Shown piece by piece: positions 17,919-21,455 of a stretch of 64,000 nt of DNA (positions are counted from its first letter, which is position 1; the number at the start of each line of letters is the position of its first letter). A program made the translations under genes and the position numbers. Under the pieces are notes generated by a model. That model saw only the letters and a program-made list of their open reading frames with translations. It searched no databases and was not told the DNA's origin. Origin of the DNA: Streptococcus sp. M334 (GTDB lineage: Bacteria > Bacillota > Bacilli > Lactobacillales > Streptococcaceae). Where the stretch lies: positions 62,001 through 126,000 of the forward strand of contig NZ_GL732490.1 in NCBI RefSeq assembly GCF_000187745.1, given 5' to 3'.

Positions 17919-18788
17919 ATGATGGCAAAAGAACTACAAGACTGGTTTCCTGAAGCTCAGATTTCAGACCAACCAGTAGAGAAAGAGGGCTTTCTCACTC
18001 TCCCTCTAGTTTCTCAGCAGTGGATTTTGCTGGAGGAAGCTGGGCTCAGTGAGCGTGAAAAGCAGTTGATTTCTCTTTTGACCCAGCAGGAGCAGGCTCG
18101 TTCGCTCAATCCTTGGTATTCCTATCTGATTGAGGGGAAGGGACAGGCACCACAAACTTTTAAAAAGATTCAGTTGGTTTATTGTCATCTGTCCTATTTT
18201 CAGCAGGAAAATCTAGCTTCTTGGCTAGATATGATGCGGACTCTTTTTCCTAACTGTCAGACGGTGATTCAGGTCGGAGCTCAGGATTATGTTTTCGTGC
18301 TTCAACAAGACAAATACACCTCTGTACGAGCTATTTTAAGTGATACGATTGAAGCGGTTGAGTATGACTTTGGACTTCGTCTCTCTATCATGTTAGGTCA
18401 AGTTTGGTCTCAGACGGGGCATCAAGCCCTATCAGACTTAATCAAAGCGGAGCGAGATTTGTTTAAGACTTGGTGGCGTCAGGGTCACCAAGGTGTTCAT
18501 ACTTTTTCACAACTCTATCTTTGGAGTATGGGAGAAAGACTTGTGAACCTGAGAGCAATCAAGGAATGCTTGCACCAGATGATTCTGGATCAGGATCAGA
18601 TTCAGGAAATTATTCTCTCTCTTTGGGAAAATAGTGCTGTCCTAACAAAAACAGCCCAGCAACTCTATCTGCACCGTAATTCTCTCCAATACAAGATTGA
18701 TAAATGGGAAGAATTGACAGGGCTTCAGTTGAAGGAATTGACCGATCTGACCTTGTGTTATCAATTGATTTTACCAGATATTCTATAA
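17919..18788 (+). CDS. PucR/CdaR-type helix-turn-helix regulator
   Basis: A protein of 289 residues. The C-terminal 60 residues form the PucR-type helix-turn-helix: ENSAVLTKTAQQLYLHRNSLQYKIDKWEELTGLQLK. The middle (about 120-215) resembles the GGDEF-like domain common in this family. The N-terminal part has no clear domain. Such proteins control sugar-acid, purine or amino-acid use. Two ATG codons stand in a row at 17919 and 17922, after GGAGG. It comes right after mrnC, and a terminator separates it from msmK. Its target is unknown; the sugar-importer ATPase gene next door is a candidate only by position. Confidence 0.82.
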   Translation: MMAKELQDWFPEAQISDQPVEKEGFLTLPLVSQQWILLEEAGLSEREKQLISLLTQQEQARSLNPWYSYLIEGKGQAPQTFKKIQLVYCHLSYFQQENLASWLDMMRTLFPNCQTVIQVGAQDYVFVLQQDKYTSVRAILSDTIEAVEYDFGLRLSIMLGQVWSQTGHQALSDLIKAERDLFKTWWRQGHQGVHTFSQLYLWSMGERLVNLRAIKECLHQMILDQDQIQEIILSLWENSAVLTKTAQQLYLHRNSLQYKIDKWEELTGLQLKELTDLTLCYQLILPDIL

Positions 18789-20077: not shown

Positions 20078-20126
20078 GCGGTTGAGTAGAAAAAACTCCT
20101 GAGAAATCCCAAGAGAATGTGATTGA

Positions 20127-21317
20127 TTATTTAAAGTTGAATCCTTCGTAAATAAGCTCTGCTTTGGGATTTTGTTTCTTAATCTGTTTGGAGAGTGACT
20201 TCATCATAGAAAGAGGACCACACATATAGAAGCTTGCATGTTCGGGCACTTCTTTTTGTTCAAAATTAAGATAGCCATCTTTCCTACTGTCTACTAGATG
20301 GAGTTCAAAATTAGGATTTTTCTGAGCATAGTCACGGAGCAAGTCTAGGTAGACTGCATTTTCTTCTCCACGGAAGCTATAGTAGAAGTGAACCTGTTTA
20401 TCTAAAATAGGATGTTCACGGATGTAAGAGATGAAGGGGGTAATCCCAATACCTCCAGCAATCCAAATCTGATTTTTTCGTCCTTGGTTGATGATCATGT
20501 GTCCGTAAGCTCTGTCTACGCTTACTTTGCTGCCGACTTGAAGATTGTCATAGATATTCTTGGTATGGTCACCTGAATTTTTAACAGTAAAGTAAAGCGT
20601 TTGACCATGACCTCCTGAGATAGAAAAGGGATGCGGAGCACTTTCAAAACCTTCTTGGAAAATCTTTAGGAAGGCAAATTGTCCTGCTTGATAGTTGAAA
20701 GGTCTGCTAAGATGGATTTGAATTTCTCTAGTATCGTGATTTAAGCGTTTGAGATTGGTAATTTTCCCTAGATAGGGGAAGCCAATCTTTTGATAAAGGA
20801 AGATGATATAAAAACCAGCCACTAATCCTAAAAGGGCATAGCTACCAACAAGAAAACTTAGAAGATTAAATGTAAGAAGACGATTGCCCATCATCATGTA
20901 GACGTGAAAGAGTCCGAAAATATAAGCTAGGTAAACTAGACGGTGAATCCATCGCCAAGCTTCGTATTGGATGTATTTGCCTAAATAGGCTACAAGGATG
21001 ATGCTGACAAAGATATAGATGGCAAGGTTGCCAAACTGAGCAGCTAAGCGAGAGCCCCACAAACCGCCCATACTAAAGTTATGAAAGATGAGTAGAATAA
21101 TGGAGAGAAAGGCTGTGAATTTGTGGACGGTGTAGACCTTTTCCAAACCGTGAAACCAGCTTTCTAGTAGTGGGAGACGAGTGGCGAGGATAAAAGTCAG
21201 AGATAGGCTTGTTAAAGCTAGTCCTGGAATCATGAATTGGGGAGAAGTGCTCATCCAAGTCAAAATAGTCAAGACAAAACTAGCTATGATAAAGAGTAGT
21301 CCTTTGAGTGATTTCAT
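20127..21317 (-). CDS. NOX-type flavocytochrome (bacterial NADPH oxidase homologue)
   Basis: A 396-residue membrane flavocytochrome, nearly the same as the NADPH-oxidase homologue known as SpNOX. Six membrane helices form a ferric-reductase domain; two His pairs (H65/H79 and H125/H138) have the 13-14 residue spacing of bis-haem ligands. Then comes an FAD domain (HPFSISGG) and an NAD(P)H domain (AGGIGITPF, YMCGP). It passes electrons from NAD(P)H across the membrane to oxygen or iron. The start ATG at 21317 has GGAA before it; upstream in-frame codons lack this. It lies between msmK (convergent) and an ABC operon and has its own promoter. Confidence 0.93.
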   Translation of the reverse strand: MKSLKGLLFIIASFVLTILTWMSTSPQFMIPGLALTSLSLTFILATRLPLLESWFHGLEKVYTVHKFTAFLSIILLIFHNFSMGGLWGSRLAAQFGNLAIYIFVSIILVAYLGKYIQYEAWRWIHRLVYLAYIFGLFHVYMMMGNRLLTFNLLSFLVGSYALLGLVAGFYIIFLYQKIGFPYLGKITNLKRLNHDTREIQIHLSRPFNYQAGQFAFLKIFQEGFESAPHPFSISGGHGQTLYFTVKNSGDHTKNIYDNLQVGSKVSVDRAYGHMIINQGRKNQIWIAGGIGITPFISYIREHPILDKQVHFYYSFRGEENAVYLDLLRDYAQKNPNFELHLVDSRKDGYLNFEQKEVPEHASFYMCGPLSMMKSLSKQIKKQNPKAELIYEGFNFK

Positions 21318-21348
21318 AAAAAATTCCATTTCATTTAGATTTGTTGTA

Positions 21349-21391
21349 AACAAATTTGTTACATTTTATCATAGAAAAAGTATGATGTCAA
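21349..21391 (-). promoter_or_regulatory. Promoter and possible operator of the NOX gene
   Basis: On the minus strand TTGACA (21386-21391) and TAAAAT (21363-21368) are 17 bases apart, an excellent sigma-A promoter. Just downstream is a perfect 12-bp palindrome AACAAATTTGTT (21349-21360), overlapping a second short repeat TTGTT/AACAA (21341-21353). This is the right place for a repressor. Its identity is unknown. Confidence 0.75.
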
Positions 21392-21420: not shown

Positions 21421-21448
21421 AAAAAAACTCTCCAATTGAACTGGAGAG
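21421..21448 (-). terminator. Terminator of the amino-acid ABC operon
   Basis: On the minus strand CTCTCCA pairs with TGGAGAG, followed by seven T residues. Confidence 0.85.
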
Positions 21449-21455
21449 TGGCTGT

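Follow-up and report, generated by a model that had tools for sequence, protein, structure and literature searches.

The window analyzed here, a stretch of 64,000 nucleotides of the Streptococcus sp. M334 genome (G000; 2.2 Mb in 32 contigs), contains on its minus strand the gene nox, preceded by a promoter and an inverted repeat (Table 1). The open reading frame runs from 20127 to 21353 in the list of frames for the window, and the interval 20127 to 21391 outlined by the initial annotation joins coding sequence and promoter. The start codon is likely at 21317; an in-frame alternative, the ATG at 21329, would give a protein of 400 amino acids (MEFF...). The published SpNOX residue numbers match a start four codons 5' of MKS, that is, the ATG at 21329. 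In more distant nox promoters an AAGGA sits right for the later ATG, which makes MKS a possible N terminus of the native protein.

Table 1. Features of the nox locus (positions in the window)
Feature	Position	Strand	Remarks
nox coding sequence (SpNOX ortholog)	20127-21317	minus	396 aa from ATG (MKSLKG)
-35 hexamer TTGACA	21386-21391	minus	First five bases invariant in 27 distinct promoters
-10 hexamer TAAAAT	21363-21368	minus	Preceded by TG (extended -10)
Predicted SifR operator TGTAACAAATTTGTTTACA	21345-21363	minus	19-bp inverted repeat TGTAA-N9-TTACA
12-bp palindrome AACAAATTTGTT of the initial annotation	21349-21360		Inside the operator 21345-21363
Terminator-like hairpin upstream of nox	21427-21449	minus	Between the amino-acid ABC transporter genes (permease gene) and nox
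Terminator-like hairpin after nox	20096-20115	minus	z -2.16

The NADPH oxidase homology claimed for the product in the initial annotation was borne out. The FAD_binding_8 and NAD_binding_1 domains exceed the Pfam cut-off, and the SpNOX chains 8qt6, 8qq7, and 8qta align with the product from end to end (E value of 6.3e-253 for 8qt6), its dehydrogenase part being matched also by the chains 8qq5 and 8qq1 of about 220 residues. Ferric_reduct reaches 26.5 bits (Pfam cut-off, 28); since the homology with SpNOX runs over the whole length, a ferric-reductase-like transmembrane domain is near certain in the predicted product. Among the NCBIfam models only distant flavin-reductase families matched, all below the cut-off. 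The haem-ligand histidines of SpNOX, H69, H83, H129, and H142, lie in TM3 and TM5 (PMC11564096); both pairs are kept in the window as His 65, 79, 125, and 138, and the constant offset of 4 means that the published numbering fits the ATG four codons upstream. Judged by its sequence, the gene is an ortholog of the structurally solved SpNOX of Streptococcus pneumoniae. When the NOX proteins are compared, S. mitis and S. pneumoniae rank, together with others, as the nearest of the named loci.

The promoter, TTGACA-17-TAAAAT (21391 to 21363, minus strand), carries 11 of the 12 consensus bases, so that the earlier description of a strong promoter belonging to nox itself stands, whereas the word "perfect" does not. 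Since terminator-like hairpins lie on both sides and the downstream gene is convergent, an own transcript is probable; nox is thus probably transcribed alone, in agreement with the earlier view that the gene stands by itself. Its upstream neighbors are amino-acid ABC transporter genes. Two genes away from nox, directly before a UgpC/MalK-type gene, the reading frame 17919 to 18788 (plus strand) encodes a PucR-type C-terminal helix-turn-helix.

A palindrome at the start point, taken by the initial annotation as the site of a dedicated repressor, is indeed present and covers the expected start, but it does not go beyond chance, as the window holds 12 perfect 12-mer palindromes against a mean of 17.65 (range, 11 to 24) in 20 first-order Markov control sequences. 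Moreover, AACAAATTTGTT is hardly conserved, being present in one of the 28 close orthologs (the window's own copy) and one of the 35 named loci, and we dropped it as an operator. The genome contains TAACAAATTTGTT in perfect form once more (C10:2169), before a gene read by eye as adenylosuccinate synthase and without the TGTAA-N9-TTACA frame; this site was also set aside. As far as the aligned sequences tell, the palindrome forms the center of the real 19-bp site, where conservation is poor. That site begins on the final base of the -10 hexamer and spans the expected start point.

Unlike the 12-mer, the repeat TGTAA-N9-TTACA lies beyond chance. Its chance expectation is about 0.0002 per 150 bp, and it is found exactly in all 28 close nox orthologs, defined by at least 65% identity in a full-length alignment; these fall into about three identity groups (92 to 100%, 77 to 78%, and 65 to 66%), so that they are not 28 independent cases. 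The ortholog at L019 (G108), counted among the 28, is interrupted by an in-frame stop at codon 121, its promoter and operator being intact. Across the 27 distinct promoters, five bases of the -35 hexamer, two bases of the spacer, and several bases near the -10 hexamer are constant, and most other columns vary; the half-sites are constant too, their columns being the same by construction in an alignment anchored on the exact repeat, although this anchoring drops no sequence, as all 28 promoters have the repeat. The exact operator was also present in 31 of the 35 named loci, which overlap with the genomes of the 28 orthologs. It was missing from Leptotrichia L073 (56% identity), from L074 of Streptococcus sp. 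HF-1907 (58%, with a match starting only at residue 29), and from the partial S. sanguinis 2908 matches L072 and L075; the missing 5' end of L072 sits in a separate piece which bears the operator (genome G105). This interrupted copy of G105 (L044), with the exact operator in its 5' piece, was left out of the 28; a further partial copy in G105 is without the exact operator.

Upstream of eight more distant nox copies the exact operator was not found. Four of them belong to genomes without a SifR of at least 57% identity (G012, G020, G058, and G111) and four to genomes with SifR (G041, G053, G090, and the second copy of G040). In both G041 and G053 a -10-like hexamer is directly followed by the same 8/10 version of the operator, and the best operator match at the G090 gene is likewise 8/10. 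The G012 copy contains two internal stops, and the G058 match starts at residue 28, which makes its upstream stretch uncertain. The link between operator and nox is therefore limited to the closer clades; not every nox gene has it. In eight relatives the exact motif occurs at 42 sites, compared with 21 for the reversed control. In G000 it is not enriched (4 sites versus 3 in the reversed control and, with one mismatch allowed, 120 sites per strand versus 112), and for this reason the sequence alone would not prove an operator.

The geometry of the repeat is that of the 19-bp operator, TGTAA-N9-TTACA, of SifR, a quinone-sensing repressor of the Rrf2 family whose small regulon comprises catE, ywnB, yhdA, fre, and others (PMC9218516). 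In S. pneumoniae D39, SifR binds the operators of catE, ywnB, yhdA, and fre (SPD_0527), the latter with a Ka of 0.25e8 per M, and deletion of sifR raises the fre transcript, as determined by RNA-seq under strict anaerobiosis (PMC9218516). Modification of Cys102 by quinones leads to loss of DNA binding, which was measured by anisotropy on the catE operator; for the fre operator, the NMR spectrum after quinone treatment was intermediate between those of bound and free SifR (PMC9218516). For fre, published evidence of binding and derepression comes only from D39 (SPD_0527). The same report describes SPD_0527 as a putative membrane protein with two haems and an FRE domain, leaving its function open, and the products of the other genes under SifR act on catechols, quinones, and iron (PMC9218516).

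The identity of SPD_0527 can be approached through gene order. In the S. pneumoniae-like genome G039 the order is fba (assigned by Pfam), nox, permease, permease, and binding protein, and its NOX agrees almost completely with the solved SpNOX, in 391 of 396 residues as counted by eye. In D39, Fba is encoded by SPD_0526 (PMC6018154) and a substrate-binding protein by SPD_0530 (PMC10286718); since three genes fit between these two, with nox as the first of them, nox corresponds to SPD_0527. The published description as a dihaem FRE-domain membrane protein agrees with SpNOX. On the basis of gene order and the D39 tags, then, SPD_0527 ("fre") is SpNOX.

When we inspected the genome of the window, sifR was found at C3:99924-100364, with an Rrf2 domain, Cys84, Cys102, and the HxxPNPxC motif, close to a gene for a PsaR-like iron/manganese repressor, as described for D39 (PMC9218516). 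The yhdA gene of G000 has a one-mismatch operator 46 bp 5' of the matched coding region. The genome search did not find catE and ywnB, though sifR, nox, and yhdA are kept, so that the published catechol pathway is incomplete in G000. In two relatives a sifR copy stands tail to tail directly after nox (L182:5793-7584 in G092 and L183:7502-9293 in G031); the metallophosphoesterase-like neighbor of sifR came along in this rearrangement, which ties regulator to target.

Twenty regions with the motif, picked by eye, contain 22 sites of TGTAA-N9-TTACA; when reading frames were called mechanically, 19 of these sites fell into the gaps between frames. Several sites precede catE-like, YwnB-like, YhdA-like, and nitroreductase genes, and some lie near a gene for an Rrf2-type regulator (one of each assigned by Pfam). 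In G056, TGTAA-N9-TTACA stands just 5' of a nitroreductase gene (L100:2251; Pfam) and just 5' of a YhdA-like FMN reductase gene (L102:2116), which suggests a wider SifR-type regulon in this genome. Paired sites 42 bp apart (L112:2023 and 2065; L113:2008 and 2050) lie downstream of a gene for a SifR-type regulator and precede a catE-like gene. In three relatives a small thioredoxin gene has a site about 300 bp ahead of it (L114:1997, L115:2011, and L119:2004; Pfam for the L114 gene), and at L105:2044 and L106:2044, in two genomes with an S. oralis-like NOX, TGTAAATAATATTGTTACA is found about 200 bp 5' of a gene for a UDP-GlcNAc 2-epimerase (assigned by Pfam at L105). Co-occurrence was assessed over 118 genomes, of which 56 have some nox match; 20 weaker ones were dropped, leaving 36 nox genomes with a match of at least 49% identity, the interrupted G012, G105, and G108 included. 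A SifR of at least 57% identity is present in 32 of these 36 and in 53 of the 82 others, and catE, with five weak-match genomes dropped, in 34 of 36 and 42 of 82; the two comparisons agree in direction, but they are confounded by kinship and carry little weight.

We consider it very probable that nox is regulated by SifR, a control which for the strain of the window is carried over by analogy with D39. Operator and repressor, as foreseen by the initial annotation, are upheld, whereas "dedicated" is not, as the site is very probably the operator of the known SifR, which is shared among the genes of a small regulon; the iron, oxygen, and metal stress recommended there for expression tests would miss the published signal, quinones. 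A dedicated, undescribed repressor acting on AACAAATTTGTT is extremely unlikely. It would account for the position of the palindrome across the expected start point, and the PucR-type frame two genes away offers a candidate, but the counts among controls, close orthologs, and named loci given above speak against it, the immediate neighbors of nox in the window are transporter genes, and where a regulator does adjoin nox, in G092 and G031, it is SifR itself. We regard as very improbable the use of the site by another regulator with TGTxA-like half-sites, such as WalR/VicR or GlnR. In the strain of the window, TGTAAC-N5-TGTTTA resembles a direct repeat of WalR; however, most close orthologs have TATTTA in place of its second half, TGTTTA, whereas none departs from the inverted half-sites. 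The spacing of GlnR sites, TGTNA-N7-TNACA, does not fit. The motifs of WalR, GlnR, and Rex were compared with the site and set aside. Against WalR and GlnR it also counts that binding of SifR to the TGTAA-N9-TTACA geometry is already published (PMC9218516).

It is just as improbable that nox is constantly expressed and that the repeat serves for spacing or survives as a relic. The strong promoter would suit this explanation, as would the SpNOX knockout, for which the source states, with data not shown, that it had no identifiable phenotype (PMC5676040). However, in the repeat-anchored alignment of 27 distinct promoters the half-sites are unchanged while most of the remaining columns have diverged, and the SPD_0527 transcript rises upon deletion of sifR (PMC9218516). 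According to the mechanism that we favor, a reduced SifR dimer, encoded elsewhere in the genome, would occupy TGTAA-N9-TTACA over the -10 hexamer and start point and thereby block transcription. Catechol-derived quinones would modify Cys102 and release SifR from the DNA, turning on nox with the regulon, which in the genome of the window probably means yhdA too. The product, a predicted membrane flavocytochrome with FAD and two haems, would then take electrons from NAD(P)H in the cytosol and pass them to an extracellular acceptor. As SpNOX is constitutively active in vitro (PMC5676040, PMC11031084), transcription control is probably the main switch of NOX activity.

What the enzyme reduces is the step of which we are least sure. 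Control by quinones makes quinones and Fe(III)-catecholates the first acceptors to consider. Tentatively, as something a little short of an even chance, we infer that the acceptor is an Fe(III)-catecholate or a quinone at the cell surface, reached directly or via superoxide; equally tentative is the corresponding role of NOX as an inducible surface reductase of quinones or Fe(III)-catecholates, induced by quinones through SifR. The acceptors reported for SpNOX are O2 and cytochrome c (PMC11564096, PMC5676040). A reasonable if rather doubtful possibility is that SifR controls nox and the enzyme reduces oxygen, with no role for iron or quinones, so as to supply external superoxide or peroxide as a signal or weapon or to re-oxidize NAD(P)H. 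Consistent with this, purified SpNOX forms superoxide from NADPH and O2, an activity published for SpNOX only, and its ferric reduction was superoxide dependent in that earlier study (PMC5676040); direct ferric reduction is slow, with a kcat of only 0.05 per s (PMC11564096). However, the fellow targets of SifR process catechols, quinones, and iron, and derepression in the RNA-seq analysis occurred under strict anaerobiosis (PMC9218516), while the accessibility of the outer haem and the efficient reduction of cytochrome c leave room for other acceptors (PMC11564096, PMC11031084).

The SpNOX structures, the SifR operator, and the binding of SifR to, and derepression of, "fre" in D39 are already known. 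The analysis adds the proposed link of SpNOX to SifR, which would tie a bacterial NADPH oxidase to catechol and quinone stress. We found no paper joining the two among the main texts searched, for the most part from outside the subscription journals. In the full-text literature searched, SPD_0527 occurs only in PMC9218516, the text of which does not contain "NOX," and the text of the eLife paper on SpNOX (PMC11031084) does not contain "quinone"; a 2023 review treats both subjects apart and calls the role of the oxidase unknown (PMC10543277). SpNOX is a structural model for the NOX family, and its own papers leave its role open (PMC5676040, PMC11564096, PMC11031084), just as SPD_0527 stood under another name, "fre," as an open question in the SifR paper (PMC9218516). 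Joined, the two literatures point to conditions to examine (quinones and catechol-bound iron, with and without oxygen) and to acceptors worth trying on the purified enzyme, so that the role becomes testable. If NOX does act as a surface reductase of quinones or Fe(III)-catecholates, the model bacterial NOX would be an enzyme of catechol and quinone stress rather than one devoted to producing reactive oxygen.

Compared with SpNOX (PDB 8qt6, 8qq7, and 8qta; PMC5676040, PMC11564096, PMC11031084), the protein of the window is alike in its full-length match, four haem-ligand histidines, and C-terminal GF.F region, and differs in being about 92% identical (363 of 396 residues versus the S. pneumoniae-like protein of G039). 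Its gene has the same neighbors as in G039 on the amino-acid transporter side, whereas downstream of nox a UgpC/MalK-type ATP-binding gene takes the place of the fba gene of the S. pneumoniae-like order. With the SifR regulon of D39 (PMC9218516), the locus shares the fre gene itself, the same by synteny, both operator half-sites, and a sifR with Cys102; the difference is the lack of catE and ywnB among the genes detected in the genome of the window. According to the same source, HypR of Staphylococcus aureus recognizes the core motif TGTAA-x9-TTACA, like that of the nox site, but it has two Cys residues and senses hypochlorite, whereas SifR has one conserved Cys and senses quinones; YwnA of Bacillus subtilis has a single conserved Cys, as SifR does (PMC9218516).
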